Assembly: GCA_016278515.1 (NCBI GenBank)
Contig: JADQBR010000132.1
Location: forward strand, 1-53,303
DNA from: Bacillota bacterium
GTDB taxonomy: Bacteria > Bacillota > JADQBR01
Direction: 5' to 3'
Length of the DNA stretch: 53,303 nt
Shown: positions 4,463 to 45,846 of the stretch, piece by piece
How positions within the stretch are numbered: the first letter of the stretch is position 1
How the letters are laid out: each line of letters opens with the position of its first letter
Translations under genes and position numbers: made by a program
Notes under the pieces: model-generated
Told to the model about the DNA's origin: nothing
The model's input: only the letters and a program-made list of their open reading frames with translations
The model's database searches: none

Positions 4463-4585
4463 ATGAAATTGGCTAACACACCGAACAATCCGTCTGGAGC
4501 CATGTACAGCCGCAGCGAATTGCAGGCTATTGCGGACGTGCTGGTCAATCATAATGTCGCGGTTCTCCTAAATAGTCCCGGGTAA
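4463..4585 (+). pseudogene. Aminotransferase fragment (40 codons)
   Basis: The short frame from ATG 4463 begins MKLANTPNNPSGAMYSRSEL and continues LQAIADVLVNHNVAVLL. This is the central TPxNPxG block of a class I aminotransferase, equivalent to about residues 170-205 of the intact enzyme at 1174. It then ends at a TAA inside a terminator hairpin. It has its own ribosome-binding-like AAGGGG, but is far too short to function. I infer a remnant of a second aminotransferase gene. Confidence 0.7.
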
Positions 4586-4607: not shown

Positions 4608-4754
4608 ACCCTAAAGGGGGCGCCCAAACTGGCATTTGGTTTGGCAAGCTCTTGTGCTATGAATCTATACATTGTTTGCGGTATTGATGAACATATTTTT
4701 CGGCGTTCAGACACAGAAATTGATCCAGAACGGCGGTAATCAATAAAAACTGTT
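4608..4754. other. Unassigned spacer before the direct repeat
   Basis: No convincing gene is seen. A minus-strand open frame crosses it, but it reads back into the terminator and shows no recognisable family. The direct repeat begins at 4755. Confidence 0.4.
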
Positions 4755-4775
4755 TGTTTAGGAATTAGACAACGT

Positions 4776-4868
4776 GTTAAAAAAAGGAACAAGCTTTGAG
4801 AAAGCTGTTGCAGTTAAGGTCCCGTTTTGGCCTTTAGTAGCTGTTCTTTTTTTGGCATAATTATTGCT
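4776..4868 (+). promoter_or_regulatory. Sigma-54 promoter with upstream half-sites (copy 1)
   Basis: TGGCATAATTATTGCT at 4853-4868 has the -24 GG (4854-4855) and -12 GC (4866-4867) separated by exactly 10 bases. Upstream, GTTAAAAAAAGGAACA (4776-4791) and GGTCCCGTTTTGG (4818-4830) sit 77 and 35 bases before the -24 element. They resemble inverted half-sites also found before the promoter at 45949. I infer a binding site for an AAA+ sigma-54 activator, possibly the one encoded at 43942. Confidence 0.7.
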
Positions 4869-4957
4869 TATCTAATAGTTTAAAATATTGTGATTTATAT
4901 GGAAATAATTTTGGCACATTACATCTAGATATAATTTTGGGAGGTGAAAACTCGTTA

Positions 4958-4975
4958 ATGAAAGCGTGTGAGTGA
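4958..4975 (+). other. Possible five-codon leader ORF (copy 1)
   Basis: GGGAGGTG at 4939-4946 is followed 11 bases later by ATG and the frame MKACE-stop. The same mini-frame is in copy 2 (9769-9786), and as MNACE in the decayed third copy (15053-15070). It may be a leader peptide or just the relic of an older gene start. Confidence 0.25.
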
Positions 4976-5009
4976 AACATGGTTTAAATTTTTGAAGGAG
5001 GTAATTTTA

Positions 5010-6113
5010 ATGGGAGAGAAGAAAGCGGAAATTGGAAAAGTTGCAAACATGGTTGAACCGATGAAACTAGAATTTAGAGAATTTAAAGTTCCGGAGCCTG
5101 GTGAAAATTGTTTAGTGGTGAAAGTAATAAGAACGAACGTATGTGGTTCCGAACTACATATATGGAGAGGAAAGCACCCCACGAAAAGGACCGGTGTATT
5201 AGGACATGAAATGGTGGGTGTAATTGAAAAGATTGGCCCCGGAGTGACAACAGATTTTGCGGATCAACCAATCAAAGTGGGTGACCGAGTAGCTTCAGCT
5301 TATTATAGAACTTGTCTAAAGTGTAAAGCTTGCTTAAGAGGCGACTTCAATAATTGTGAACGAAGTATTGAATTTTGGAACAAAAAGCCAGAAGAATTTC
5401 CTCATTTTCATGGCGCATTTGCGTCTCATTACTACATTCATCCAAATCAATACTTTTATAAAGTTCCTGATAATATACCAGATGTTGTCGCGGCAAGTGC
5501 AAACTGCGCCCTTTCACAAGTTTATTACGGACTTGATAAAGGGGAACTTGCAACAGGCGAAACCGTTGTTATCCAAGGTGCTGGAGGCTTAGGGTTGAAT
5601 GCTGTGGCAGTTGCAAAAGAAAGAGGAGCAATAGTGATCATCATCGACGCCCTTAAATCAAGACTTGAAATGGCAAAACAGTTTGGTGCTGATTATACTA
5701 TTGATTTAACCGAGCACGATACTGTCGAGAAAAGGGCTGAACTTGTACGTTCTTATACCGATGGTGAAGGCGCAGATTTAGGCCTCGAAGTTTCCGGAGT
5801 GCCAGAGGCGTTCGGGGAAGGTATTTATCTTATTCGAAACAATGGCAGATACGTCACAATGGGTAATATTTCACCAGGGAAAGTGATTGATTTTGATCCA
5901 GGTATCCTTACGAGAAAAGCGATTAGGATCATACCCATATTACGCTATAAGCCATGGTATTTAGCAAAAGCCCTGAAATTTCAATCCGCATGTATAGACA
6001 AATATCCTTTTGAAAGCATGATTGATTGTGATTTTTCATTTGAAAATATCGGTGAAGCCCTTGAAAAATCGGCGAGCCGAGAAGTAACGCGGGCCTCGAT
6101 TGTTATTGATTAG
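5010..6113 (+). CDS. Zinc-dependent alcohol dehydrogenase, MDR superfamily (copy 1)
   Basis: A 367-residue medium-chain dehydrogenase. Catalytic zinc ligands are visible as Cys45 (NVCGSELH) and His66-Glu67 (GHE). The structural-zinc lobe has four cysteines at about 102, 105, 108 and 116 (CLKCKACLRGDFNNC). The NAD(P) Rossmann motif is GAGGLGLNAVAVAKERGA. I chose ATG 5010 because AAGGAGGT lies 7 bases upstream; a GTG at 4968 in frame lacks a site. It oxidises or reduces an unknown alcohol/carbonyl. Since it is followed by a TctC binding protein, the substrate may be linked to the carboxylate imported. The second copy at 9821 encodes an identical protein. Confidence 0.85.
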   Translation: MGEKKAEIGKVANMVEPMKLEFREFKVPEPGENCLVVKVIRTNVCGSELHIWRGKHPTKRTGVLGHEMVGVIEKIGPGVTTDFADQPIKVGDRVASAYYRTCLKCKACLRGDFNNCERSIEFWNKKPEEFPHFHGAFASHYYIHPNQYFYKVPDNIPDVVAASANCALSQVYYGLDKGELATGETVVIQGAGGLGLNAVAVAKERGAIVIIIDALKSRLEMAKQFGADYTIDLTEHDTVEKRAELVRSYTDGEGADLGLEVSGVPEAFGEGIYLIRNNGRYVTMGNISPGKVIDFDPGILTRKAIRIIPILRYKPWYLAKALKFQSACIDKYPFESMIDCDFSFENIGEALEKSASREVTRASIVID

Positions 6114-6172
6114 CAGATGAGATACATTGTTAGGCAAACTAGAATATATTTAAAAATTTGGAGGTTAAACTT

Positions 6173-7201
6173 ATGAAGAAAAAAGTAATGGTTTTAACAA
6201 TGCTGGCATTTATGCTTGTGTTTGCGGCTGCTTGCGGTAATAATACCGAAAGTGCATCAGAGCAAAAACCAAAAGCAACGCCTAGTGAAGAAAAAGAAGT
6301 TGCTAAAGACGAACTAAAGTTTCCAGAAAAGCCTGTTACTTTAGTTGTACCTTATGCAGCAGGTGGGGGAACAGATGCAACTGCTAGAGCATTAGCAAAA
6401 GCAGCGGAAGAGTTTTTAGGTCAACCAATAGGCGTTGTGAATAAAACTGGTGGAAATGCAATCGTTGGTATGAGTGAAGTTGCAAATGCAAAACCGGATG
6501 GATATACACTTTTATTCAACACAAGTGAGATTGTAATTCTTCCACATCAAGGTATGTCACCGATTACTTATGAGGATTTCGCACAGATTGCGCAAATAAA
6601 TTTTGACCCATCTGCGTTAACGGTACCAGCAGATGCACCATATAACACATTAGAAGAATTTTTGGCTTATGCTAAAGAAAACCCAGGCAAAATTCGCGTT
6701 GGCGGTTCTGGTACAGGTGGTATTTGGCATTTAGGGTCGGCATCAATTGAAAAAGTTACTGGTGTTAAGTTGAATTATGTTCCATATGACGGTGGTGCGC
6801 CAGCCAAAACTGCATTACTTGGTGGTCATATTGAGGCTGTAACCATTAGTCCAGCAGAAGTTTTGACTCAAGTTAAAGCAGGTGAATTAAAAACATTGGC
6901 AGTGCTTGCTACAGACAGATCAGACTCAATGCCTGATGTACCTACGTTTAATGAAGCGGGTTATGATGTTGCCGTCGGTGTTTGGAGAGGAATCGATGCT
7001 CCTGCCGGTACGCCAGCTGAAGTCATTGAAAAGCTTCAAGAAGCATTTTTGAAAGCTGCCAAAGAACAAGAATTTATAACCTTTATGGAAAACAATGGTC
7101 TTGGGATCGTATTGAAAGGTTCAGAGGATTATCACAAGATGGTTAAAAAAGACAATGATTTTTACAAAGAGTTGCTAGGTGAGCTTGGTTTGTCAAATTA
7201 A
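6173..7201 (+). CDS. tctC: TctC/Bug-family solute-binding lipoprotein (copy 1)
   Basis: A 342-residue extracytoplasmic binding protein of the tripartite tricarboxylate transporter family. The N-terminus is MKKKVMVLTMLAFML with lipobox FAAAC, so it should be lipid-anchored outside the membrane. The mature part opens with FPEKPVTLVVPYAAGGGTDATARA, the signature ligand-binding region of this family, split here as FPEKPVTLVVPYAAGGGTD and the following helix. ATG 6173 has TTGGAGG upstream; the GTG at 6158 is in frame but precedes no site. In this copy tctB and tctA do not follow, so the protein would have to work with the permease encoded after copy 2. Ligand is a carboxylate, identity unknown. 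Confidence 0.85.
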   Translation: MKKKVMVLTMLAFMLVFAAACGNNTESASEQKPKATPSEEKEVAKDELKFPEKPVTLVVPYAAGGGTDATARALAKAAEEFLGQPIGVVNKTGGNAIVGMSEVANAKPDGYTLLFNTSEIVILPHQGMSPITYEDFAQIAQINFDPSALTVPADAPYNTLEEFLAYAKENPGKIRVGGSGTGGIWHLGSASIEKVTGVKLNYVPYDGGAPAKTALLGGHIEAVTISPAEVLTQVKAGELKTLAVLATDRSDSMPDVPTFNEAGYDVAVGVWRGIDAPAGTPAEVIEKLQEAFLKAAKEQEFITFMENNGLGIVLKGSEDYHKMVKKDNDFYKELLGELGLSN

Positions 7202-7227
7202 CATTACCATAAATTAAGCATAATTCC

Positions 7228-7259
7228 ATACAGAGAATTGCTGCTGCAATTCTCTGTAT
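7228..7259 (+). terminator. Perfect hairpin after tctC (copy 1)
   Basis: ATACAGAGAATTGC (7228-7241) pairs perfectly with GCAATTCTCTGTAT (7246-7259) over a TGCT loop, followed by TCCTTTT. In copy 2 the same hairpin sits between tctC and tctB, so it probably acts as an attenuator or mRNA stabiliser giving more binding protein than permease. In copy 1 it is the probable end of the transcript. Confidence 0.75.
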
Positions 7260-7267
7260 TCCTTTTA

Positions 7268-7533
7268 GAAAAGTTTGAAGTGCAATAGTAAACGAATATG
7301 GATGTTACCCCTACACTGATGGGGATTTAACTGAAACCGTCATAAGTATGTGCGTTTGGAGGCTTTGAATAGTGAGCTATTGCTGAATGTGGCAATACAC
7401 AAAAATGTATTAAGGCTTGCTCCAAACAGATGCCGTTGCGCCAGGTCATTGACAAAGCAAACAGTGCAATGCTAAAGTTTAAGGTAAAGATTGGCTTAAA
7501 GCCAAGCAACTATTTTTGGAGGTGACTAGGGAG
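7268..7533. other. Spacer between repeat copy 1 and the AOR gene
   Basis: About 265 bases with no recognisable gene or strong promoter. GGAGGTG at 7518-7524 is the ribosome binding site for the AOR start at 7534. Confidence 0.4.
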
Positions 7534-9225
7534 TTGGAGAAATTTCTAAGAGTTGATATGAATGAATTGCAGGTTTCTTACGAAGAAGTACCAGAGAAGT
7601 ATCAAAAAGTAGGCGGCAGAAGTTTAATAGCTAAACTGCTGTTGGACGAGGTTGTGCCCACTTGCGACGCACTCGGACCTCATAATAAACTAATCGTGGC
7701 AACGGGCTTGTTAGCCGGTACTAGCGTTTCAAGTGCGGGGCGGATATCGGTAGGTGCCAAGAGCCCTTTGACAGGCGGAATTAAGGAAAGTAACGCGGGT
7801 GGCATTACCGCCAACAGGCTGGCCCAAATGGGTGTAAAAGCTTTAGTAATTGAAGGGCTGCCGAAGGGTGATGATTGGTATATTGTAGTGATCAATGATC
7901 AAGGATGTAAACTGGTACCTGCTGAAGCCTACGTCGGTATGGGGACATACGAATTTTGCACCAAAATCCGGGAAGATTATTCTGATGCTGCGGTGACCTG
8001 TATAGGACCGGCCGGTGAAAAACTTTATAATGCTGCAGGGGTAGCCACCATAGACAGAGAAGGTTGGCCGAGTCGCTATAGTGGTCGCGGTGGCATGGGC
8101 GCGGTTATGGGTTCGAAAAAGATTAAGGCTATAGTAGTTGAAGGGAAAGGCCGTGTATCATTCGCGAATGAAGAGAAATTCAAGGATGCCCTCAAGGAAT
8201 ATACGGCAATTGTGAAAGATGCTCCAAGTACTGCCGCATATAAGGATTATGGAACGCCTTCCATGGTGCGTATAGTAGATGCATTGGGAGGATTGCCGGT
8301 TAATAACTTCAGTAATGGTTCTTTTGACCGGGTGGACGACATCAGTGCCGAAACCCTCAATGACGTAATCACCAGACGCGGTGGTAAGACCTCTCATGCT
8401 TGTATGGCGGGGTGTGTAATTGCCTGCTCTAACGTTTACGTAGATGAAGAAGGTGAAACCATTGTGTCGCCTCTCGAATATGAAACCATAGGCTTAATGG
8501 GTTCAAATCTTGGCATTTCTGATTTTGACGTCATCGCAAAACTAAACTACCTGTGTAATGATATTGGCTTAGACACTATTGAGACTGGAGCAGCTATTGC
8601 TGTGGCTATGGAAAGTGGAGTGGCCGCATTCGGTGATGGCGAGGCAGCGTTAAAAATGGTGGAAGAGATGCGCCAGGGAACAGTATTGGGCAGGGTGCTG
8701 GGTGCTGGAACTGCCGTAACTGGTAAAGTGTTTGGAGTGCGCAATGTACCGGTAGTGAAGGGCCAGGCTATGGCAGCATATGACCCTCGGGCTTTAAAAG
8801 GAATGGGTGTCACTTATGCCACTTCAGCCATGGGAGCGGATCACACTGCCGGACCGACAGGTAAGGCGAAAGTAGATCATTCAAGTCCCGACGGGGCAGC
8901 AGACCTTTCTTTAACCCTGCAGAAAAAGATACCTGTATATGATTGTACAGGCCTTTGTATGTTTACCATCGGTTCCATTGGTGCACATCCTCAGGTAATT
9001 ATAGACTTACTCAACAGCCGTTTCGGCTGGGATTTGAATGTGGATTGGCTTAATGAAATGAGCCTCGAGACCTTAAAAGACGAATACCGTTTTAATGAAC
9101 TAGCCGGGTTTACCAAGTTGAGTCATCGTTTACCTGAAGCGTTTACAGAAAGAGAGTTGCCAAATTTAGGTACAGTTTTCGATGTTCCTGATGAAGATAT
9201 TGACCAAATGATGAAATATAGCTAA
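7534..9225 (+). CDS. aor: Aldehyde:ferredoxin oxidoreductase (tungsten-pterin family), C-terminus short
   Basis: A 563-residue protein. The N-terminal AOR domain includes the GGRSLIAKLL and ATGLLAGTSV segments that bind the bis-pterin cofactor. The iron-sulfur ligands are three cysteines at about 290, 294 and 298 (CMAGCVIAC) and a later DCTGLC near 471-475. It should oxidise an aldehyde to the carboxylic acid with ferredoxin as acceptor, or reduce acids in reverse. TTG 7534 is preferred because GGAGGTG lies about 9 bases upstream. The sequence stops at DIDQMMKYS, where relatives normally go on with a YYxxRGWDxxGVPT tail of about 40 residues. A tail of exactly that type lies decayed at 41254-41367. 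The gene may be a C-terminally truncated form. Confidence 0.85.
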   Translation: MEKFLRVDMNELQVSYEEVPEKYQKVGGRSLIAKLLLDEVVPTCDALGPHNKLIVATGLLAGTSVSSAGRISVGAKSPLTGGIKESNAGGITANRLAQMGVKALVIEGLPKGDDWYIVVINDQGCKLVPAEAYVGMGTYEFCTKIREDYSDAAVTCIGPAGEKLYNAAGVATIDREGWPSRYSGRGGMGAVMGSKKIKAIVVEGKGRVSFANEEKFKDALKEYTAIVKDAPSTAAYKDYGTPSMVRIVDALGGLPVNNFSNGSFDRVDDISAETLNDVITRRGGKTSHACMAGCVIACSNVYVDEEGETIVSPLEYETIGLMGSNLGISDFDVIAKLNYLCNDIGLDTIETGAAIAVAMESGVAAFGDGEAALKMVEEMRQGTVLGRVLGAGTAVTGKVFGVRNVPVVKGQAMAAYDPRALKGMGVTYATSAMGADHTAGPTGKAKVDHSSPDGAADLSLTLQKKIPVYDCTGLCMFTIGSIGAHPQVIIDLLNSRFGWDLNVDWLNEMSLETLKDEYRFNELAGFTKLSHRLPEAFTERELPNLGTVFDVPDEDIDQMMKYS

Positions 9226-9323
9226 GAGACTATATTTTATTAGTTGTAACCAGAGCACCAAATTTTTTAATTGGGAAGGAAACAAAAGCCGTTTACTAGC
9301 GACCTTATAAAGGATGGCATAGA

Positions 9324-9373
9324 GCATTATAAAAGAGACAGTCTGGAAATCCAGACTGTCTCTTTTATAATGC
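9324..9373. terminator. Bidirectional rho-independent terminator after AOR
   Basis: A perfect 23-bp inverted repeat (9324-9346 with 9351-9373) has an AAAT loop. The stem runs from A-rich to GTCTGG/CCAGAC to T-rich, so it can terminate in either direction. It isolates the AOR gene from repeat copy 2. Confidence 0.9.
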
Positions 9374-9429
9374 ATTCGGCATGGGGATTAACTAGGTGTT
9401 AAAAGTCCACTGAGGGGGTTAGTAGTTAA

Positions 9430-9565
9430 TAACCATTACTAATTTACCCTACTTCAGTTTCTGTTTTCAATGGTTCTTGATCCTAATTGAAGTTCTCGAA
9501 CGTTAGCCGCATGCTCAGTTGGGTGCAATTACACCATGGCGCTATTGATGAAACTTTAATATATC
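9430..9565. other. Unique sequence upstream of repeat copy 2, matched by the decayed third copy
   Basis: The stretch 9480-9565 (CCTAATTGAAG, then CAGTTGGGTGCAATTACA, then CGCTATTGATGAA) recurs with about 10 percent changes at 14727-14811, just before the decayed third promoter copy. It is absent before copy 1. Copy 2 therefore keeps the older flank and copy 1 is probably the newer insertion. No gene is recognised. Confidence 0.6.
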
Positions 9566-9586
9566 TGTTTAGGAATTAGACAACGT

Positions 9587-9679
9587 GTTAAAAAAAGGAA
9601 CAAGCTTTGAGAAAGCTGTTGCAGTTAAGGTCCCGTTTTGGCCTTTAGTAGCTGTTCTTTTTTTGGCATAATTATTGCT
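9587..9679 (+). promoter_or_regulatory. Sigma-54 promoter with upstream half-sites (copy 2)
   Basis: The -24/-12 element TGGCATAATTATTGCT lies at 9664-9679 and the upstream half-sites start at 9587 and 9629. Sequence and spacing are the same as in copy 1. This promoter would drive adh-tctC-tctB-tctA. Confidence 0.7.
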
Positions 9680-9820
9680 TATCTAATAGTTTAAAATATT
9701 GTGATTTATATGGAAATAATTTTGGCACATTACATCTAGATATAATTTTGGGAGGTGAAAACTCGTTAATGAAAGCGTGTGAGTGAAACATGGTTTAAAT
9801 TTTTGAAGGAGGTAATTTTA

Positions 9821-10924
9821 ATGGGAGAGAAGAAAGCGGAAATTGGAAAAGTTGCAAACATGGTTGAACCGATGAAACTAGAATTTAGAGAATTTAAAGT
9901 TCCGGAGCCTGGTGAAAATTGTTTAGTGGTGAAAGTAATAAGAACGAACGTATGTGGTTCCGAACTACATATATGGAGAGGAAAGCACCCCACGAAAAGG
10001 ACCGGTGTATTAGGACATGAAATGGTGGGTGTAATTGAAAAGATTGGCCCCGGAGTGACAACAGATTTTGCGGATCAACCAATCAAAGTGGGTGACCGAG
10101 TAGCTTCAGCTTATTATAGAACTTGTCTAAAGTGTAAAGCTTGCTTAAGAGGCGACTTCAATAATTGTGAACGAAGTATTGAATTTTGGAACAAAAAGCC
10201 AGAAGAATTTCCTCATTTTCATGGCGCATTTGCGTCTCATTACTACATTCATCCAAATCAATACTTTTATAAAGTTCCTGATAATATACCAGATGTTGTC
10301 GCGGCAAGTGCAAACTGCGCCCTTTCACAAGTTTATTACGGACTTGATAAAGGGGAACTTGCAACAGGCGAAACCGTTGTTATCCAAGGTGCTGGAGGCT
10401 TAGGGTTGAATGCTGTGGCAGTTGCAAAAGAAAGAGGAGCAATAGTGATCATCATCGACGCCCTTAAATCAAGACTTGAAATGGCAAAACAGTTTGGTGC
10501 TGATTATACTATTGATTTAACCGAGCACGATACTGTCGAGAAAAGGGCTGAACTTGTACGTTCTTATACCGATGGTGAAGGCGCAGATTTAGGCCTCGAA
10601 GTTTCCGGAGTGCCAGAGGCGTTCGGGGAAGGTATTTATCTTATTCGAAACAATGGCAGATACGTCACAATGGGTAATATTTCACCAGGGAAAGTGATTG
10701 ATTTTGATCCAGGTATCCTTACGAGAAAAGCGATTAGGATCATACCCATATTACGCTATAAGCCATGGTATTTAGCAAAAGCCCTGAAATTTCAATCCGC
10801 ATGTATAGACAAATATCCTTTTGAAAGCATGATTGATTGTGATTTTTCATTTGAAAATATCGGTGAAGCCCTTGAAAAATCGGCGAGCCGAGAAGTAACG
10901 CGGGCCTCGATTGTTATTGATTAG
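9821..10924 (+). CDS. Zinc-dependent alcohol dehydrogenase, MDR superfamily (copy 2)
   Basis: Identical at protein level to the 367-residue enzyme at 5010, with catalytic Cys45 and His66-Glu67, four structural-zinc cysteines and the GAGGLG nucleotide-binding motif. Here it is the first gene of a complete adh-tctC-tctB-tctA operon behind a sigma-54 promoter. That suggests the dehydrogenase acts on, or downstream of, the carboxylate imported by the TTT transporter. The start ATG follows AAGGAGGT. Confidence 0.85.
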   Translation: MGEKKAEIGKVANMVEPMKLEFREFKVPEPGENCLVVKVIRTNVCGSELHIWRGKHPTKRTGVLGHEMVGVIEKIGPGVTTDFADQPIKVGDRVASAYYRTCLKCKACLRGDFNNCERSIEFWNKKPEEFPHFHGAFASHYYIHPNQYFYKVPDNIPDVVAASANCALSQVYYGLDKGELATGETVVIQGAGGLGLNAVAVAKERGAIVIIIDALKSRLEMAKQFGADYTIDLTEHDTVEKRAELVRSYTDGEGADLGLEVSGVPEAFGEGIYLIRNNGRYVTMGNISPGKVIDFDPGILTRKAIRIIPILRYKPWYLAKALKFQSACIDKYPFESMIDCDFSFENIGEALEKSASREVTRASIVID

Positions 10925-10983
10925 CAGATGAGATACATTGTTAGGCAAACTAGAATATATTTAAAAATTTGGAGGTTAAACTT

Positions 10984-12012
10984 ATGAAGAAAAAAGTAAT
11001 GGTTTTAACAATGCTGGCATTTATGCTTGTGTTTGCGGCTGCTTGCGGTAATAATACCGAAAGTGCATCAGAGCAAAAACCAAAAGCAACGCCTAGTGAA
11101 GAAAAAGAAGTTGCTAAAGACGAACTAAAGTTTCCAGAAAAGCCTGTTACTTTAGTTGTACCTTATGCAGCAGGTGGGGGAACAGATGCAACTGCTAGAG
11201 CATTAGCAAAAGCAGCGGAAGAGTTTTTAGGTCAACCAATAGGCGTTGTGAATAAAACTGGTGGAAATGCAATCGTTGGTATGAGTGAAGTTGCAAATGC
11301 AAAACCGGATGGATATACACTTTTATTCAACACAAGTGAGATTGTAATTCTTCCACATCAAGGTATGTCACCGATTACTTATGAGGATTTCGCACAGATT
11401 GCGCAAATAAATTTTGACCCATCTGCGTTAACGGTACCAGCAGATGCACCATATAACACATTAGAAGAATTTTTGGCTTATGCTAAAGAAAACCCAGGCA
11501 AAATTCGCGTTGGCGGTTCTGGTACAGGTGGTATTTGGCATTTAGGGTCGGCATCAATTGAAAAAGTTACTGGTGTTAAGTTGAATTATGTTCCATATGA
11601 CGGTGGTGCGCCAGCCAAAACTGCATTACTTGGTGGTCATATTGAGGCTGTAACCATTAGTCCAGCAGAAGTTTTGACTCAAGTTAAAGCAGGTGAATTA
11701 AAAACATTGGCAGTGCTTGCTACAGACAGATCAGACTCAATGCCTGATGTACCTACGTTTAATGAAGCGGGTTATGATGTTGCCGTCGGTGTTTGGAGAG
11801 GAATCGATGCTCCTGCCGGTACGCCAGCTGAAGTCATTGAAAAGCTTCAAGAAGCATTTTTGAAAGCTGCCAAAGAACAAGAATTTATAACCTTTATGGA
11901 AAACAATGGTCTTGGGATCGTATTGAAAGGTTCAGAGGATTATCACAAGATGGTTAAAAAAGACAATGATTTTTACAAAGAGTTGCTAGGTGAGCTTGGT
12001 TTGTCAAATTAA
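10984..12012 (+). CDS. tctC: TctC/Bug-family solute-binding lipoprotein (copy 2)
   Basis: Identical at protein level to the 342-residue lipoprotein at 6173, with signal peptide and lipobox FAAAC. It is the binding component of the tripartite tricarboxylate transporter whose membrane subunits follow immediately. A perfect hairpin between it and tctB likely sets a high ratio of binding protein to permease. Substrate class: di- or tricarboxylate or another organic acid. The exact ligand cannot be read. Confidence 0.9.
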   Translation: MKKKVMVLTMLAFMLVFAAACGNNTESASEQKPKATPSEEKEVAKDELKFPEKPVTLVVPYAAGGGTDATARALAKAAEEFLGQPIGVVNKTGGNAIVGMSEVANAKPDGYTLLFNTSEIVILPHQGMSPITYEDFAQIAQINFDPSALTVPADAPYNTLEEFLAYAKENPGKIRVGGSGTGGIWHLGSASIEKVTGVKLNYVPYDGGAPAKTALLGGHIEAVTISPAEVLTQVKAGELKTLAVLATDRSDSMPDVPTFNEAGYDVAVGVWRGIDAPAGTPAEVIEKLQEAFLKAAKEQEFITFMENNGLGIVLKGSEDYHKMVKKDNDFYKELLGELGLSN

Positions 12013-12038
12013 CATTACCATAAATTAAGCATAATTCC

Positions 12039-12070
12039 ATACAGAGAATTGCTGCTGCAATTCTCTGTAT
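12039..12070 (+). promoter_or_regulatory. Intercistronic attenuator hairpin between tctC and tctB
   Basis: The same 14-bp perfect stem with TGCT loop as at 7228-7259, followed by TCCTTTT. It lies within the operon, so partial termination or 3-prime-end protection of the tctC message is the likely role. Confidence 0.7.
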
Positions 12071-12101
12071 TCCTTTTAACTGAGAAAAGGGGGCTAAACT
12101 T

Positions 12102-12539
12102 TTGAAGAAAGCAAATCAAATCGCTAGTTTGATAGGTATCGCCATTGCAATGTTCTTCTTTGTTCTGACGTTTCAATTCAAGCAGATTGAATATCAAGAC
12201 ACTGGGCCTGCATTAATGCCACGTTTGTATTCGGGGGTTTTAATTGTTCTTGCCCTTATATTATTTTTCAATTCATATAGGACTAAAGAAAAAGTCGAAA
12301 AGGGTAATGTAAAAATGGCATTAATTACAATGGCATTGGTGCTCACGATAGTTGTTTTGATACCGATTATTGGGTTTTATATTATTACGCCAATTGTTAT
12401 CTTTGTATTTTTAAAAATATGCCAACAAACAAACAAAAAGATTTTATTCGGTTTACCAATAGGAGTAGTATTATTTATTTTTGTTTTCTTCCAAAAAATT
12501 CTCTCGGTTCCAATTCCGACTGGGATATTCTTTCAATAA
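12102..12539 (+). CDS. tctB: TctB-family small membrane subunit of the TTT transporter
   Basis: A 145-residue, very hydrophobic protein with about four transmembrane segments (starting IASLIGIAIAMFFFVLTFQF, then VLIVLALILFFNS, then ITMALVLTIVVLIPIIGF and a last IGVVLFIFVFF helix). The size and the DTGPALMPRLYSGVLIVLA segment fit TctB. TTG at 12102 follows AAAAGGGGG. It lies between tctC and tctA, 20 bases before tctA. It forms the small integral-membrane subunit that works with TctA. Confidence 0.85.
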   Translation: MKKANQIASLIGIAIAMFFFVLTFQFKQIEYQDTGPALMPRLYSGVLIVLALILFFNSYRTKEKVEKGNVKMALITMALVLTIVVLIPIIGFYIITPIVIFVFLKICQQTNKKILFGLPIGVVLFIFVFFQKILSVPIPTGIFFQ

Positions 12540-12559: not shown

Positions 12560-14080
12560 ATGGAACTATTATTGCAAGGGCTTATGAATGTTTTAGATAT
12601 TAAAGTGGTTTCTATTTTGTTTTTGTCAGGTGCTGTAGGGATTTTCATCGGTTCCTTGCCAGGTTTAACCGCAACAATGGGTGTTGCCCTTTTATTACCA
12701 GTTACATTTGGAATGGAGCCGGTGAAAGGGATATTATTATTAGTTGGTGTTTATTTTGGTGCGATTTACGGGGGCTCTATTTCAGCCATATTACTAAGAA
12801 CACCAGGAACCCCTTCCTCAGCCGCCACAGCACTTGATGGTTATGAGATGACAAAAAAAGGGTTAGCCTATAAAGCACTAACGGTCTCGACGCTTTCTTC
12901 AACAATCGGAGGGATTTTGAGTGTTATTCTTTTAATTTTTATCGCCCCTCAACTAGCGAAATTCGCGTTAAAATTTAGTGCACCCGAAACATTTGCGCTT
13001 GCTTTGTTCGGTTTAGCAATAATATCAAGTATTTCTGGGACATCTTTAGTTAAAGGTCTAATGGCGGGCTTTGCAGGACTTCTAATAGCTTCCATTGGAA
13101 TTGATCCGATTGGAGGTTTTCCCCGATTTACCTTTGGAACGGCTAATTTGATGGGTGGTATTAGCTATATCCCTGTTTTAATCGGTTTGTTCGCGGCTTC
13201 CGAGGCATTTCATACAGCGGAAAATGTTTTGATACAGACTAAAACAGTCAGCACTAGTATTAACAAAGTCAAGTTAAAATGGGCTGAGTTTAAAAAGTTG
13301 ATTATTGTTATTTTAAGGTCAACATTTATTGGGACATTTATTGGGATGATACCCGGTGCAGGGGGAGATATTGCTTCCTTTGTTTCCTATAATGAAGCCA
13401 AAAGATGGTCAAAGAACCCAGATGAATTTGGGAAGGGAAACATGGAAGGCGTTTCCGCCTCGGAAGCGGCCAATAACGGCTGTACAGGTGGAGCGATGAT
13501 ACCGCTATTAACTCTTGGTATACCAGGAGATGCAGTAACAGCTGTAATGTTAGGTGCGTTAATGGTTCAAGGGTTACAGCCAGGACCTTTATTGTTTACA
13601 AACCATGCTGATATTGTCTATACTTTATTTATTGGTATGTTATTTGCCAATATGCTGATCCTATTTTATGGTATGTTAGGCATTCGTTTATTTGTGAAAA
13701 TTCTACAAATACATAAGGCTATTTTAACCCCAATTATATTGGTTTTATGTATAGTCGGTTCGTATGCACTCGGAAATAATTTCTTTGACGTATGGGTTAT
13801 GCTAATTGCTGGAATTATAGGCTATGTGATGAATAAATATAATTTTCCACCTTCGCCTGTTATTCTTGCGCTAATACTGGGCCCGATGATGGAAGCAAGT
13901 CTTCGGCGTGCTCTCGTAATATCTAGTGGAGATGTTAGTATATTTTTTACAAGGCCGATATCCGCAACGCTACTGTTATTAGCGATTGGAACTTTATTAT
14001 ATCCAATAATATTAGATTGGAAAAAAACTAGAAAAACAACTACGGATGCGAAGCAATACGATGCAAGTAATATAGATTAA
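12560..14080 (+). CDS. tctA: TctA-family large membrane subunit of the TTT transporter
   Basis: A 506-residue permease with about 12 transmembrane segments. Signature regions of the family are present: GSLPGLTATMGVALLLP near the N-terminus and GGSISAILLRTPGTPSSAAT at about 70-90. The internally repeated counterparts GMIPGAGGDIASFVSY and LTLGIPGDAVTAV follow later. The length is typical. ATG 12560 follows AAAGGAGG. It completes the adh-tctCBA operon and carries out proton- or sodium-coupled uptake of the bound carboxylate. Confidence 0.92.
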   Translation: MELLLQGLMNVLDIKVVSILFLSGAVGIFIGSLPGLTATMGVALLLPVTFGMEPVKGILLLVGVYFGAIYGGSISAILLRTPGTPSSAATALDGYEMTKKGLAYKALTVSTLSSTIGGILSVILLIFIAPQLAKFALKFSAPETFALALFGLAIISSISGTSLVKGLMAGFAGLLIASIGIDPIGGFPRFTFGTANLMGGISYIPVLIGLFAASEAFHTAENVLIQTKTVSTSINKVKLKWAEFKKLIIVILRSTFIGTFIGMIPGAGGDIASFVSYNEAKRWSKNPDEFGKGNMEGVSASEAANNGCTGGAMIPLLTLGIPGDAVTAVMLGALMVQGLQPGPLLFTNHADIVYTLFIGMLFANMLILFYGMLGIRLFVKILQIHKAILTPIILVLCIVGSYALGNNFFDVWVMLIAGIIGYVMNKYNFPPSPVILALILGPMMEASLRRALVISSGDVSIFFTRPISATLLLLAIGTLLYPIILDWKKTRKTTTDAKQYDASNID

Positions 14081-14700: not shown

Positions 14701-14726
14701 TTATATTTCACCGATATTTTTGTTAC

Positions 14727-15163
14727 CTAATTGAAGTTTCTGAACGTCAGCCGAATGCTCAGTTGGGTGCAATTACATCATGACGCTATTGATGAACCTT
14801 GATATATTTGTTTAAAAACTAGACAAAACGTTAACAAAAGGAACAAGCTCTTAGAAATCTGTTGCAGTTAGGGTCCTGTTTTGGCCTTTAATAACTATTC
14901 TTTTCTTGGCATAATTATTGCACATCTTATAGTTTGCAATATTGTAATTTCATGGGGGATAGCTCTAGTAAATTACAAAGTTGTAGGTTTTTTCTTTGAG
15001 AAATGGTATATATATCATCTAGATATAATTTTGGAAGGTTAAAAATTTGTTAATGAATGCGTGTGAGTGAAACATAATTTAAATTTTCAAAGGCGGTAAT
15101 TTTAATATGGTTGAACCGATGAAACTTGAACTTAGAGAATTTAAAGTCCCGGAAGTAAACTAA
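14727..15163 (+). pseudogene. Decayed third copy of the adh promoter region and adh 5-prime end
   Basis: From 14727 the sequence follows the region upstream of copy 2 with scattered differences, through the sigma-54 promoter, the mini leader frame and a ribosome site. It reaches ATG 15107, which encodes MVEPMKLELREFKVPEVN and then a stop. This matches ADH residues 14-29 and then breaks off. The coding part is dead, but the promoter itself (14907-14922) is intact. Confidence 0.8.
14830..14922 (+). promoter_or_regulatory. Sigma-54 promoter with upstream half-sites (diverged third copy)
   Basis: TGGCATAATTATTGCA at 14907-14922 is an even better -24/-12 match than copies 1 and 2. GTTAACAAAAGGAACAAG begins 77 bases upstream (14830) and GGTCCTGTTTTGG begins 35 bases upstream (14872). 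Conservation of these blocks while neighbouring bases drift suggests they matter. It could now drive the iron alcohol dehydrogenase at 15487. Confidence 0.65.
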
Positions 15164-15486
15164 GGATTAACTTACCATTTATACTAAAAGAGTGTTCAGA
15201 AAAGTTGAAAAATGGTTTTTTTAAGAAGCCGATATATTAAGATTTGCCAGTCGTTTATAAAGTAAGCAAGATTGGTGGGGAGACCTTGATGAAAGTAAAT
15301 GAAGCCATAAGCAGCAATACATACATGATGCCGTTATTATTTTAGGTAAAACCATTGGAAGTTGTAGAGACTTAAGTGAATTTTTTGTTAAAGAAATGGT
15401 CGTTGGTGAAACATGATAATAGTTATGGGAGGTGATTTGCAACAAATTGATAAATATGTATTGAGAAAAATGGGAGGAGGAAAAAA
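15164..15486. pseudogene. Gene debris before the iron alcohol dehydrogenase
   Basis: Around 15290-15415 a short peptide MKVNEAI and, one frame over, HDAVIILGKTIGSCRDLSEF followed by FVKEMVVGET can be read with a single frameshift. This looks like a decayed coding sequence of unknown family. A ribosome-site plus TTG frame at 15436-15490 overlaps the next ATG and is too short to assign. Confidence 0.4.
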
Positions 15487-19990: not shown

Positions 19991-19994
19991 GGTA

Positions 19995-20291
19995 ACGCCT
20001 GTTGCTTTGGCGGACAGTGTTACAAGTATCTTTGCAGCGTTGGCAATTATGATTACAGTTTATGAGAGAGACGTGGTTGACAGTGGCAGAGGGCAGTCCA
20101 TTGCCAGTCACTGATAGAAGTCGAAGACTTAAGTAAAATCCAGCTACCGGGCATGTTTGCCAAATTATCTCTTGCTCCGGGATCCGTTATATTTACCGGC
20201 CGGACAAAGGTGCGCATAACAAAGAAATATACAAGGGTTTAGGCTTTATCGAGGAAGAGATTGAACAGTTGCCGAAGCCGGAATCATCTAG
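19995..20291 (+). pseudogene. Decayed class III CoA-transferase fragment
   Basis: This stretch matches two separate parts of the intact CoA-transferase gene at 40032. 19995-20100 resembles 40526-40630 (CCTGTTGCTTTGGCGGAC and following). 20101-20305 resembles 41030-41235 (the final codons, the TAG and the CCTTCGGTT after it). About 400 bases are deleted between two GGCAGTC-type short repeats, and point changes and frameshifts have accumulated. It cannot encode a functional enzyme. Confidence 0.85.
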
Positions 20292-33252: not shown

Positions 33253-34314
33253 TTGGAAAAAACCATGATGAAAGGAAATGAGGCAATAGGTGAAGCTGCC
33301 CTGCGTGCCGGTTGTCGTTATTATTTTGGCTATCCCATTACTCCACAGAACGAATTGCTGGAACATATGGCAAATAATCTGCCAAAACATGACGGAGTGT
33401 TTTTACAGAGTGAAAGTGAATTGGCAGGTGCCAGTATGCTTTACGGCGTAGCCGCTACTGGGAAAAGGGTAATGACCTCGTCATCCAGTCCAGGCATCAG
33501 TTTGATGCAGGAGACAATTTCTTATCTGGCTTCTGCTGAGCTACCAGCGTTGATAGTGAATATTACTCGGGGCGGCCCAGGCTTAGGTAGAATCACTCCG
33601 GCCCAGTCTGACTATTTTCAGGCGGTAAAAGGTGGCGGTCATGGAGATTATAACTTGATAGTATTTGCCCCAGCTTCTGTACAGGAAATGATGGATTTAA
33701 CCATGTTGGCATTTGAATTGGGTGACAAGTATCGCACCCCCACAATGATTTTGGGAGATGGTATCATTGGTCAAATGATGGAAAGTGTTACCCTGGCGGA
33801 GCCGGTGGAAATTAAGCAGAAAAAACCATGGACAGTAGGTAGGAGAAAGGATAGAGATTACCGCAATTTAGTTATTTCTGCACCGTTTACTAATGAAGAA
33901 ATGGTGGAATTAAACGTACGGCTACAGGAGAAATACAGAGAGATAGAGGCGAACGAACAGCGTGTGGAATGCTATCGCATGGATGATGCAGAATTTGCAA
34001 TTGTAGCTTTTGGTATTGTATCACGATTATCTTTGGCCGCCGTGGACAGTATGCGCAACAAGGGTTATAGAGTAGGATTGATCCGGCCAATTACCTTATG
34101 GCCTTTCCCTGAAAAGGCCTTTGCATCTTATCCTCAGGTTAAAGGTTACCTAACAGTGGAAATGAATGAAGGACAAATGGTTGAAGATGTAAGACTAGCT
34201 GTTAACGGAGCTGTGCCGGTGCATTTTTATGGCCGTGGCGGAGGATTTACTCCTGCTCCAAAACAGATTGAGGAAAAAGTCGCAGGAATCATGGAAGGAG
34301 GAGACTTGGCATGA
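33253..34314 (+). CDS. korA: 2-oxoacid:ferredoxin oxidoreductase alpha subunit (Kor/Vor type)
   Basis: A 353-residue alpha subunit. The N-terminus has MMKGNEAIGEAALRAGCRYY and FGYPITPQNELLEHMA, the conserved YPITP substrate loop. It goes on with the pyrimidine-binding-type domain (SESELAGASMLYGVAATGKR) and a C-terminal transketolase-like domain (GYRVGLIRPITLWPFPEKAF). TTG 33253 follows GGGAGGG. Together with beta, gamma and ferredoxin subunits it decarboxylates a 2-oxo acid to an acyl-CoA, reducing ferredoxin. The four-subunit alpha-beta-gamma-delta form is used for 2-oxoglutarate and branched-chain 2-oxo acids. The substrate cannot be read. A decayed copy of its start lies at 36930-37025. 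Confidence 0.9.
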   Translation: MEKTMMKGNEAIGEAALRAGCRYYFGYPITPQNELLEHMANNLPKHDGVFLQSESELAGASMLYGVAATGKRVMTSSSSPGISLMQETISYLASAELPALIVNITRGGPGLGRITPAQSDYFQAVKGGGHGDYNLIVFAPASVQEMMDLTMLAFELGDKYRTPTMILGDGIIGQMMESVTLAEPVEIKQKKPWTVGRRKDRDYRNLVISAPFTNEEMVELNVRLQEKYREIEANEQRVECYRMDDAEFAIVAFGIVSRLSLAAVDSMRNKGYRVGLIRPITLWPFPEKAFASYPQVKGYLTVEMNEGQMVEDVRLAVNGAVPVHFYGRGGGFTPAPKQIEEKVAGIMEGGDLA

Positions 34315-36218: not shown

Positions 36219-36637
36219 AAGAATAACCTATCTAAATCGAAATTAAAAGAAAGTAGTGCTGCGAAGAACCATACTCAAAACATCTCCGGAAACTATGGAT
36301 GAGGTACAATCGCTTTGACATACATAAGCGTCTACAAGAAAAGGATTGAGGACCTAAGAAGAAATTGTACTTTAAAAAGCAAAAATATGCAGGAGTTATC
36401 TATGTATATTCATGGAGACTCAAGCATTTTTGCTCGGGGAGCTTGAGTGTTAAGAAAGTAAATATTTGTGTTAGCGAAATGAACACAGCGTCCGTAGCTT
36501 GCTGCTCCAGGAGCTGTGTTTTCGTACGCCATCCGGAAGTGCAAATTTCTGACGAGCATAAAGTGTAACTAGGTTTCCCGTGCTGTTGAAGATTTGGTGT
36601 AAGCTAATTTATAAAATCTTTACAGTAATTTTATTAT
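36219..36637 (+). promoter_or_regulatory. Intergenic region with two hairpin dyads upstream of a sigma-54 promoter
   Basis: No gene is convincing. Two dyads are seen: ACTCAAGC (36418-36425) with GCTTGAGT (36441-36448), and AACACAGC (36482-36489) with GCTGTGTT (36513-36520). The second begins with GTTAGCGAAATGAACA (36470-36485), which matches the half-site GTTAACAAAGTGAACA upstream of the promoter at 45949 at 13 of 16 positions. I infer an upstream activator site. Confidence 0.5.
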
Positions 36638-36653
36638 TGGCACGAGGTTTGCG
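36638..36653 (+). promoter_or_regulatory. Sigma-54 promoter for the second 2-oxoacid oxidoreductase operon
   Basis: TGGCACGAGGTTTGCG fits the TGGCAC-N5-TTGC consensus fully. GG is at 36639-36640 and GC at 36651-36652. Transcription should start near 36664, giving a leader of about 450 bases that contains the gene debris described at 36718-37060. Confidence 0.85.
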
Positions 36654-36717
36654 AAGTTGTTTTACTAAGTTTAGGCCAATTAAACAAAATCAACTAAATT
36701 ACTGAAAAAAGGAGGGA

Positions 36718-37060
36718 ATTTCATAATAAAAAAGAAGAACCATACCAATGATTTAAAAATTCCTCAAACAAAAATTGGATTAAACTATGAGGCCAAAGTT
36801 TTACTCCTCGTCATATAAATGGTATGGATGAATATATCTAAGAAATAAGTTTCAGAAAATTATAAAAGTGGCATGTTCCAGTAGGCCAATAATGGCATAC
36901 TGCTAGCCGCATCTAAAGGAGGCAAAATCACTGAAAAAAACTATTGATGAAGGGAAATGAAGCCTTAGGGGAACAGCAATACGGTCAGGATGCCGTTATT
37001 ACTTTGGTTATCTTATTACATTGCAAACCGAAACCCTATTTTGTGCTCTAAGCAAAAACT
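36718..37060 (+). pseudogene. Gene debris: korA start remnant and GntR tail remnant
   Basis: From 36930 to about 37018 the DNA follows the first 90 bases of korA at 33253 with indels (AAAAAACTATTGATGAAGG, GGAAATGAAGCC, CCGTTATTACTTTGG). Then TTGCAAACCGAAACCC and TTTTGTGCT at 37021-37042 match the last codons of the GntR gene (4378-4407). An earlier part (36718-36900) has broken frames I cannot identify. The stretch lies in the transcribed leader of the following operon. Confidence 0.7.
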
Positions 37061-40031: not shown

Positions 40032-41228
40032 ATGGCTAATCAACAGCTGCCTTTGGCAGGTTTGAAGGTCATCGATATTGCGACAATGATGGCTGCCCCG
40101 TGGGCAGCAACCTACTTAGGTGATTATGGTGCCGACTTAATTAAGATCGAACATCCGATTAAGGGGGACGCAGTCAGGAATTTCGGTGAAGAAAAGAACG
40201 GCAAGGGAGTATTTTGGAAAAGTCTTTCACGGAATAAAAAGTGTATTACCCTTAATCTCAAGGAAGAGAAGGGAAAAGAAATATTTTTTAAACTGATTAA
40301 AGATGCAGACGTATTAATAGAGAACTTTCGCCCCGGTACTATGGAAAAATGGGGCGTTGGCTGGGAGGAACTGGAGAAGATCAATCCCAAGCTGATTATG
40401 CTTCGCTGTTCTGGTTTCGGCCAGGACGGGCCATATGCAAAACGTGGTGGTTTCGGTACGGTGGCAGAAGGCATAAGCGGCTTTGCTTCCATTAACGGCT
40501 ATCCCGACAGCCCGCCGACCTTACCGCCTGTTGCTTTGGCGGACGGCGTTACAGGTGTCTTTGCAGCATTGGCAATTATGATTGCAGTTCATGAAAGAGC
40601 CGGCAGCGGCAAAGGGCAGTCTATTGACATCTGTCTCTATGAACCGCTGATGCGTATGTTGGAATGCAACATCATGGAATACAGTACCCTAAAGAAAATA
40701 CCTAGCCGGATTGGAAACCGGATAAACTCTGCTGCGCCGAGAAATGTCTATCAAGCCGGTGATGGCAGGTGGGTAGCACTTTCCGGTAGCGCTCAACCTA
40801 TAGCGGAGAACGTCTTTAAGGCTATTGGCAAGCCCGAATTAATTGATGATCCAAGATTTAAAGACAATCCCAGCCGGGTTAAGAATGTGGATGAACTGGA
40901 TGATATTATCGGAGAGTGGATAGCTCAGCGTACCTTCAAGGAAGCAGTAGATATACTACTGGCGGCAGGAGCAGTAGCAGGACCGGTTTATGAGGTTGAT
41001 CAGATGTTTACTGACCCTCATCTAAATCACCGGCAGTCATTGATAGAAGTCGAAGATGAAGACTTGGGTAAAATCCAGATGCCGGGCATGTTTGCCAAAT
41101 TATCTCGTACCCCAGGATCCGTTAGATTTACCGGCCCGGACAAAGGTGCGCATAACAAAGAAATATACAAGGGTTTAGGCTTTACAGAAGAAGAGATTGA
41201 ACAGTTGGCCGAAGCCGGAGTCATCTAG
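40032..41228 (+). CDS. Class III CoA-transferase (CaiB/BaiF family)
   Basis: A 398-residue family III CoA-transferase. N-terminal PLAGLKVIDIATMMAAPWAA, then YGADLIKIEHPIKGD, the LNLKEEKGKEIFFKLIKDAD block, ENFRPGTMEKWG and LIMLRCSGFGQDGPYAKRGG. The active-site aspartate region follows about 30 residues later, near PPVALADGVTGVFAA. ATG 40032 follows GGGAGGG. It moves CoA between two carboxylic acids, for example to or from the acid imported or produced here. A decayed partial copy lies at 19995. Confidence 0.9.
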   Translation: MANQQLPLAGLKVIDIATMMAAPWAATYLGDYGADLIKIEHPIKGDAVRNFGEEKNGKGVFWKSLSRNKKCITLNLKEEKGKEIFFKLIKDADVLIENFRPGTMEKWGVGWEELEKINPKLIMLRCSGFGQDGPYAKRGGFGTVAEGISGFASINGYPDSPPTLPPVALADGVTGVFAALAIMIAVHERAGSGKGQSIDICLYEPLMRMLECNIMEYSTLKKIPSRIGNRINSAAPRNVYQAGDGRWVALSGSAQPIAENVFKAIGKPELIDDPRFKDNPSRVKNVDELDDIIGEWIAQRTFKEAVDILLAAGAVAGPVYEVDQMFTDPHLNHRQSLIEVEDEDLGKIQMPGMFAKLSRTPGSVRFTGPDKGAHNKEIYKGLGFTEEEIEQLAEAGVI

Positions 41229-43941: not shown

Positions 43942-45846
43942 TTGGTTGCTCGCATCTTAATGACTTCATCTTACCCCGAGTTCACCACTATGGCGGAAGA
44001 CATTGCCAAAGAACTGGATATGGAAATTATTGTGGTAGAAGCTGTTTTAGAGGATGCTGCCAAACAGACAGCAGAAATTTGCAATAAGGGAGACATCGCC
44101 GTCATAGTTAGTAGAGGCGGTACGGCCGAGGCGATTGAACAGGTTGTTGATATTCCGCTGATAGCGGCGGAAGCCAATGATTTCGATATACTCAAAGCAT
44201 TATGGGAAGCAAGGAAATATTCAGATCGGGTTGGTTTTCTTGGCTTTGATTACCCTGAGATGCCTTATGATTTCCAAATGCTTCTTGACATTATCGGCAT
44301 CCAAGTCAAGCAGTTTCTCTATATAAACACCTCGGACATCATTAAACAAGTTGATGACGCCGTTAATCAACAATATGAAGTTGTGGTAGGCGGCGGGATT
44401 TTTGGTGTCAACTTGGCGCGGCAGCGCGGCATTAACGGCATACTGGTCCGTTCCAGTCGGCGGACGGTCATCCAGGCCCTGCAGCGGGCCAAGTGGGCTT
44501 TGGAGGTTAGGGATCGGGATAAAAAAAGTGCTAAGCAGCTTCAGACCATCCTAAATCTTTCCCATGAAGGAATAGCGACCCTGGACCAAAATGAGGTAAT
44601 AAGGTTTTTTAACCCCGGAGCGGAAAATATTTTAGGCTTGGATAAAAGTGAGGTAATAAACCAATCCGTCCATCGGTGGAAGAAAAACCAAGACCTGGTC
44701 AAGGTGTTTCATTCAGGGAAAGAGACCAGAAGAGATGTGGTTACCGTCGGCGACACCAGTCTAATAGTTAATAGAGCACCCATTACTGTCGATCAACAAA
44801 ACTTCGGTACAGTTATCACCTTTCAAGAGGTTTCTAAATTACAGCAGTTGGAATACAGTGTCCGGCGGCAGATGCACAACCGGGGCTTAGTGGCTAAATT
44901 TGGCCTAGCAGACATTAAGACTGAATCCCAGTCGGTTATAAAATGTATCCAGAGGGCAAAACAGTTCGGTGTAACTGATAGCACAATCTTAATTACTGGA
45001 GAAAGCGGCACCGGCAAGGAGATGTTTGCCCAAGGTATTCACAATATTTCAGGTAGGAAAGAAGGACCATTTGTAGCAGTAAACTGCGCCGCCTTACCGG
45101 AAAATCTTTTGGAAAGTGAACTGTTTGGTTATGAAGAAGGTGCTTTTACCGGTGCTAAAAAGGGCGGCAAACCAGGCTATTTTGAATTAGCTCACGGAGG
45201 AACCATCTTTTTAGATGAAATAGGAATACTGCCGAAAAATGTGCAGGCGCGTTTGCTGCGGGTACTGCAGGAAAAGGAAGTATTTCGCCTAGGCGGAGAT
45301 AAGGTAATCCCTGTTGACGTTCGGATTATCGCTGCAACCAATGAAGATCTTCGCAGTGCAGTGGCTGAAAGAAAATTTCGTACCGATTTATATTACCGAT
45401 TAAACGTTTTATACATAAAACTACCGCCGCTGAGAGAAAGAAACGACATTCCCCTCTTAGCAAATCATTTTTTAGAAATGTATAATCAACGGTTTGGCAA
45501 GCAGGTCGCAAGTATAGAACCTGAGCTTTTAACTTGGCTGTGCGAATATTCTTGGCCCGGGAATATTCGAGAACTTAATAACTACTTTGAAAGACTGATA
45601 ATATTGGCCGATGGCGATAGTCTCACTATGGATCTCCTTGATTTGGAACAAGTAACCGAAGCTGAGGAAAGAGCAAGTGAAAAGAACTCTTTTAAGGTAG
45701 CACCAGGTACCTTAGAAGAAATTGAGGATCAGGTTATCAACATTTTGGTAGACCGTTTTGACGGTAATAAAGGTAAAATAGCCGATGCGTTAGGAATCAG
45801 CCGCACCACGTTGTGGAAAAAATTAAAGCGTATGGGCCATGATTAG
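43942..45846 (+). CDS. Sigma-54-dependent transcriptional activator (PrpR_N-PAS-AAA+-Fis)
   Basis: A 634-residue activator. Residues 1-190 resemble the PrpR N-terminal sensor domain (IVSRGGTAEAIEQVVDIPLI and GGGIFGVNLARQRGINGILV). A PAS domain occupies about 195-300 (QTILNLSHEGIATLDQNEVI). The AAA+ domain has Walker A GESGTGKEMF near 353, GAFTGA near 401 (sigma-54 contact), Walker B GGTIFLDEIG, and WPGNIREL. The C-terminal Fis helix-turn-helix is NKGKIADALGISRTTLWKKL. TTG 43942 follows AAAGGAG. The only such gene in the window, it is the likely activator of the -24/-12 promoters listed. PrpR-type sensors respond to small organic acids (2-methylcitrate in PrpR). Confidence 0.95.
   Translation: MVARILMTSSYPEFTTMAEDIAKELDMEIIVVEAVLEDAAKQTAEICNKGDIAVIVSRGGTAEAIEQVVDIPLIAAEANDFDILKALWEARKYSDRVGFLGFDYPEMPYDFQMLLDIIGIQVKQFLYINTSDIIKQVDDAVNQQYEVVVGGGIFGVNLARQRGINGILVRSSRRTVIQALQRAKWALEVRDRDKKSAKQLQTILNLSHEGIATLDQNEVIRFFNPGAENILGLDKSEVINQSVHRWKKNQDLVKVFHSGKETRRDVVTVGDTSLIVNRAPITVDQQNFGTVITFQEVSKLQQLEYSVRRQMHNRGLVAKFGLADIKTESQSVIKCIQRAKQFGVTDSTILITGESGTGKEMFAQGIHNISGRKEGPFVAVNCAALPENLLESELFGYEEGAFTGAKKGGKPGYFELAHGGTIFLDEIGILPKNVQARLLRVLQEKEVFRLGGDKVIPVDVRIIAATNEDLRSAVAERKFRTDLYYRLNVLYIKLPPLRERNDIPLLANHFLEMYNQRFGKQVASIEPELLTWLCEYSWPGNIRELNNYFERLIILADGDSLTMDLLDLEQVTEAEERASEKNSFKVAPGTLEEIEDQVINILVDRFDGNKGKIADALGISRTTLWKKLKRMGHD

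Follow-up and report, generated by a model that had tools for sequence, protein, structure and literature searches.

Gene content of the repeated locus

The window analysed here is an entire contig (C74) of 53,303 bases, gap-free across all four junctions of the repeat that it carries. This repeat, R, occurs twice in direct orientation with a period of 4,811 bp, on either side of a spacer, S (Table 1). Direct base comparison of the two copies gave 2,513 equal bases out of 2,513, and the identity extends by 0 bases past either end; both ends are sharp, without tapering. The perfect and abruptly ending direct repeat of the original prediction is confirmed, and the base-by-base comparison that it proposed as a check brought no hidden mismatches to light. 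The pair is the sole exact repeat of at least 55 nt in the 53-kb window, and a perfect repeat of 2.5 kb is far beyond chance. A search of the source genome's own assembly found no third full-length copy; the other significant matches were a diverged piece of 341 bp (14809-15153), the palindromic terminator matching itself, and short stretches of other contigs that resemble tctC. With two long segments of the same orientation and sharp ends, the R pair, as assembled, has the form of a segmental direct-repeat duplication.

R is one whole transcription unit, running from a promoter through adh and tctC to a terminator. At its very start lies an imperfect palindrome, TGTTTAggaatTAGACA, a candidate activator site whose counterpart in a diverged third fragment reads TGTTTAaaaacTAGACA. 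A predicted sigma-54-type promoter, TTGGCATAATTATTGCT, follows about 80 bp downstream. Its core occupies the same place in each of the three copies and matches the consensus (-24 GG / -12 GC) at 11 of 13 positions in all of them, about one chance match of this quality being expected per window. A better sigma-54-like site, TTGGCACACTTTTTGCA, precedes the adh gene of a relative (L025), which also has a divergent sigma-54 activator gene. The leader holds a mini-ORF behind a ribosome site, encoding MKACE in the intact copies and MNACE in the third fragment; it was not seen in a second relative, L024. An Rfam search of 3-20 kb gave no match to a structured RNA in the leader.

The 3' end of R falls 8 bp past the stem of the terminator-like hairpin. 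In copy 2 this hairpin precedes tctB and thus lies between the receptor and permease genes, an arrangement that is a common route to receptor excess over permease.

The spacer, single-copy in the assembly where its start was searched, carries an AOR-family gene that is complete and free of internal stops. Its best start is a TTG codon after GGAGGTGA, and its AFOR_N and AFOR_C domains predict a member of the aldehyde ferredoxin oxidoreductase family. A hairpin with perfect arms follows the gene and is likely its terminator, in agreement with the complete, terminated AOR gene expected there. Ten further AOR-family matches occur in the assembly, the closest 53% identical to the AOR of the window.

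The permease genes tctB and tctA stand directly after copy 2 only. By Pfam, copy 2 therefore belongs to a full TTT system (TctC, TctA and TctB), and the tctC of copy 1 is an orphan, away from tctAB and followed by its terminator and AOR; as had been pointed out, this binding protein has no permease of its own.

Table 1. Coordinates of the features of the repeated locus within the window.
Feature	Position	Strand	Remarks
R copy 1	4755-7267	+	UAS-like palindrome, sigma-54-like promoter, adh, tctC, terminator; judged derived
Imperfect palindrome, copy 1	4755-4771	+	candidate activator site
Sigma-54-like -24/-12 promoter, copy 1	4852-4868	+	predicted
adh, copy 1	5010-6113	+	zinc alcohol dehydrogenase family, 367 aa; 79% identity to L024 adh
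tctC, copy 1	6173-7201	+	TTT solute-binding lipoprotein; Pfam TctC 1.3e-61
Terminator-like hairpin, copy 1	7228-7267	+	T-rich tail
Spacer S with AOR	7268-9565	+	S+R is the 4,811-bp recombination unit
AOR gene	7534-9225	+	AOR-family tungsten/molybdenum oxidoreductase; Pfam AFOR_N 1.1e-62, AFOR_C 4.3e-68
Hairpin 3' of AOR	9324-9373	+	24-bp perfect arms; likely terminator
R copy 2	9566-12078	+	runs into tctB/tctA; judged native
Imperfect palindrome, copy 2	9566-9582	+	candidate activator site
Sigma-54-like promoter, copy 2	9663-9679	+	predicted
adh, copy 2	9821-10924	+	
tctC, copy 2	10984-12012	+	100% identity to copy 1
Terminator-like hairpin, copy 2	12039-12078	+	between tctC and tctB
tctB	12102-12539	+	Pfam TctB 4.5e-17
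tctA	12560-14080	+	Pfam TctA 8.5e-164
Diverged third fragment	14726-15153	+	upstream flank, sigma-54-like promoter, leader, first adh codons, then truncated
Sigma-54-like promoter, third fragment	14906-14922		last base A

Polarity of the duplication and neighbouring remnants

Copy 2 is preceded by 83 bases that recur with 88% identity at 14726-14807, beside the third fragment. No counterpart of this flank precedes copy 1, whose left flank is unrelated. In L024 the gene order is adh-ALDH-tctC-tctB-tctA, and in the genome G004 an AOR gene immediately precedes a gene of the same adh family. Taken together, these orders point to AOR-adh-tctC-tctB-tctA as the likely ancestral arrangement, as it stands at copy 2. 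Because tctBA follow copy 2, the L024 order agrees with it and its upstream flank recurs beside the third fragment, comparison of sequences and gene orders gives good support to copy 2 as the putative native copy and copy 1 as the derived one. The original prediction had reached the same polarity from the continuation into tctBA and the flank shared with the third copy; both observations hold, and the gene orders of L024 and G004 agree with them.

The third fragment is about 72% identical to R over 466 columns. An Fe-alcohol dehydrogenase gene lies about 330 bp downstream of this fragment, which has kept the promoter core and the short ORF led by a ribosome site and possibly now serves that gene.

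Other remnants are scattered over the window. Remnants of a vorB-like 5' end occur at 15286-15343 and 36932-37019, and the stretches 36637-37019 and 15286-15343 resemble the start of the 2-oxoacid oxidoreductase gene that lies at 33253. The 36637-37019 stretch has a strong sigma-54-like site, TTGGCACGAGGTTTGCG, ahead of it. At 19992-20271, between a TRAP permease and a LarA-like gene, lies a copy of the CoA-transferase gene (40032-41228) broken by a frameshift and an internal deletion. An aminotransferase fragment occupies 4463-4567. The simplest explanation shared by all these scars is that local stretches were duplicated and lost repeatedly, although the remnants differ in age. A PrpR-type sigma-54 activator gene (43942-45846) is a candidate regulator of the sigma-54-like promoters of the window.

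Assembly graph and competing structures

The contig-end overlaps that we sampled measure 51-55 nt, save one of 36, and none exceeds 55. End overlaps fixed at k are the signature of de Bruijn assemblers; it is therefore well supported that the genome is a de Bruijn draft with k=55, hence built from short reads. The first 51-55 bases of the contig (window 1-55) recur at the ends of eight other contigs (C71, C65, C164, C19, C11, C47, C24 and C32); they probably belong to the end of an insertion sequence whose multiple copies fragment the assembly. The assembly is thus broken in at least nine places at the end of another repeat, and it follows that the assembler did not cross the 2.5-kb R with reads: no read spans 2,513 bp. 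It passed R because the graph there is a simple loop between the flanks L1 and R2, made of the junctions L1-R, R-S, S-R and R-R2; it has a single branch-in vertex and a single branch-out vertex. Each flank piece that was searched for occurs once. The four junctions of R are accordingly supported by the graph; how they are linked, how many copies there are and that these are exactly identical is the assembler's reconstruction.

A perfect direct repeat around unique sequence can thus be written by a short-read assembler without any spanning read, and the identity and copy number of such repeats are not to be taken at face value. Short-read graph assembly makes merged near-identical repeats identical by construction. 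Zero mismatches are therefore weaker evidence of recency than they appear, and the age of R is only loosely bounded. Of the earlier proposal that copy 1 is probably new, the derived status stands, and the recency drawn from perfect identity does not. The possibility of an assembly artefact, which the original prediction had named as its own refutation, stays live, since a multi-copy array, or L1-R-R2 together with a circle, would yield the same k-mers.

We consider it probable that the locus arose by an ordinary local segmental duplication, without a mobile element, with both copies in one chromosome as drawn. The sharp perfect repeat, the gap-free junctions, the native gene orders, the shared flank and the nearby scars all support a duplication. 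The junctions may also be real while the structure is other than drawn, either an array L1-R-(AOR-R)n-R2 with n of at least 2, or L1-R-R2 cells mixed with excised or amplified AOR-R, the loop having been written once. Computed 56-mer sets are identical for the drawn sequence, for arrays of two or three S-R units and for L1-R-R2 with a 4,811-bp S-R circle, the last being indistinguishable from the drawn contig up to k=2513. The simple loop of the graph is moreover the topology by which a published tool recognizes tandem repeats in de Bruijn graphs (PMC6052550). There is, however, no positive sign of extra copies, and an S-R circle, with no replication gene among its ORFs, could not persist alone; we regard these structures as unlikely. 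To a mis-join of strains, with AOR-R-R2 in one population, L1-R-AOR in another and no cell holding two copies, we give little credence. The assembly does look metagenome-like, with 167 contigs and no SSU rRNA found in it, which masking may explain as some contig heads read N. Its contamination is only 1.29%, however, and no contig in it shows an alternative L1 or AOR junction, though graph simplification may have removed edges of that kind.

Two further origins would change the history of R itself. Gene conversion is common between close direct repeats, and graph simplification can merge copies that differ slightly, so an old duplication could look perfect in either way. Against this, the identity stops abruptly without tapering, and the divergence of the third fragment implies that conversion does not maintain all paralogous stretches; we hold an old origin to be very improbable. 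The sharp ends and the complete gene unit would suit a cassette, R or R-AOR, put in by a transposase or integrase, yet R and S contain no transposase or recombinase ORF, R ends without terminal inverted repeats, no target-site duplication is visible at 4754/7268 and no R copies exist elsewhere in the assembly. An insertion sequence or composite transposon, which calls for a transposase, terminal inverted repeats and a target duplication, was rejected on these grounds, and a mobile origin of any kind is scarcely credible. A plasmid origin was also rejected, the matches being weak and mostly to TTT transporter genes. Short junction identities (CTGTT on the left, GAAAAG on the right) are offset and uninformative.

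Probable origin and possible consequences of the duplication

In the local duplication that we favour, the native locus would have comprised AOR, then the sigma-54-driven adh-tctC unit, then tctB-tctA. The complete 2,513-bp unit would have been copied upstream of AOR, giving the direct arrangement R-AOR-R. R may have been copied in between the left flank and AOR; alternatively, AOR-adh-tctC may have been duplicated in tandem and the first AOR then lost. At the DNA level the locus is absent from the other genomes of the same family, and the pre-duplication junction of left flank and AOR was not seen directly. We infer that both copies lie on one chromosome as drawn and that the event was recent. 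The locus is a compact case of a full regulated unit, promoter to terminator, copied beside itself in a scar-rich region.

The original prediction of an extra dose of receptor and dehydrogenase from copy 1 is plausible, the duplicated segment being the entire unit from promoter to terminator. Copy 1 would be expressed under the same sigma-54 control as copy 2 and would provide extra dehydrogenase, and extra receptor for the one TctAB permease. Imported compounds, or alcohols derived from them, would likely be converted to aldehydes and then to acids. Beside this adh family, the aldehyde-oxidising partner is an ALDH in L024 and L025 and an AOR in the window and in G004; the solute transporter is of the TTT type in the window and L024 and of the SSS type in L025 and G004. 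A search of the literature library for clusters of AOR, ADH and TTT genes found none.

RecA recombination between the R copies could delete AOR or amplify a 4,811-bp unit of AOR, adh and tctC. The deletion had been foreseen; the amplification had been assigned to adh-tctC and has to be corrected, as the unit between the repeats includes AOR. Loss of this gene need not abolish AOR-type function, which may survive through the ten other AOR-family matches in the assembly. It is conceivable, with a slim chance of being right, that AOR-adh-tctC is a live and reversible copy-number switch, with AOR-less, single and amplified cells formed through the 2.5-kb repeats and the contig a snapshot of them; ferredoxin-linked aldehyde oxidation would then be tuned to substrate supply.

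The duplication is an ordinary kind of event, of a known type. Unequal crossing over between direct repeats is an established route to tandem arrays, and as in RecA-dependent tandem amplification, long identical direct repeats here enclose a gene, and unequal recombination between them could remove or multiply the unit in between (PMC12892994). In contrast to those cases, the borders in the window are free of insertion sequences, rRNA and transposases, the repeated segment is a transcription unit of metabolic genes, and its amplification is a predicted one. Permease-less TctC receptors are well known, and one permease serving several receptors has been proposed (PMC5994714). The extra tctC without its own tctAB, born of duplication, resembles the orphan TctC/Bug expansions of Bordetella and Rhodoplanes (PMC5994714), whereas the window holds a single, still-identical pair, co-duplicated with a dehydrogenase and 5 kb from the native permease.

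Among related loci, the operon of L024 (in a record titled Pseudomonas sp. ISL-84) shares the order of adh, tctC, tctB and tctA. It differs in that an NAD-type aldehyde dehydrogenase separates adh from tctC, the window having an upstream AOR instead, and in that it shows no duplication. A cluster on contig C100 of G004 likewise places AOR just before the same adh family, with an Fe-ADH nearby and a sigma-54 activator, but an SSS symporter and a TRAP system replace TTT and adh is present in one copy. Finally, a second cluster in genome G000 (L104, C12:42000-58000) comprises AOR, a zinc ADH, an Fe-ADH, an aldolase, an FAH-family protein, pdxA and a complete TTT system: the same kinds of genes as in the window, in another order.
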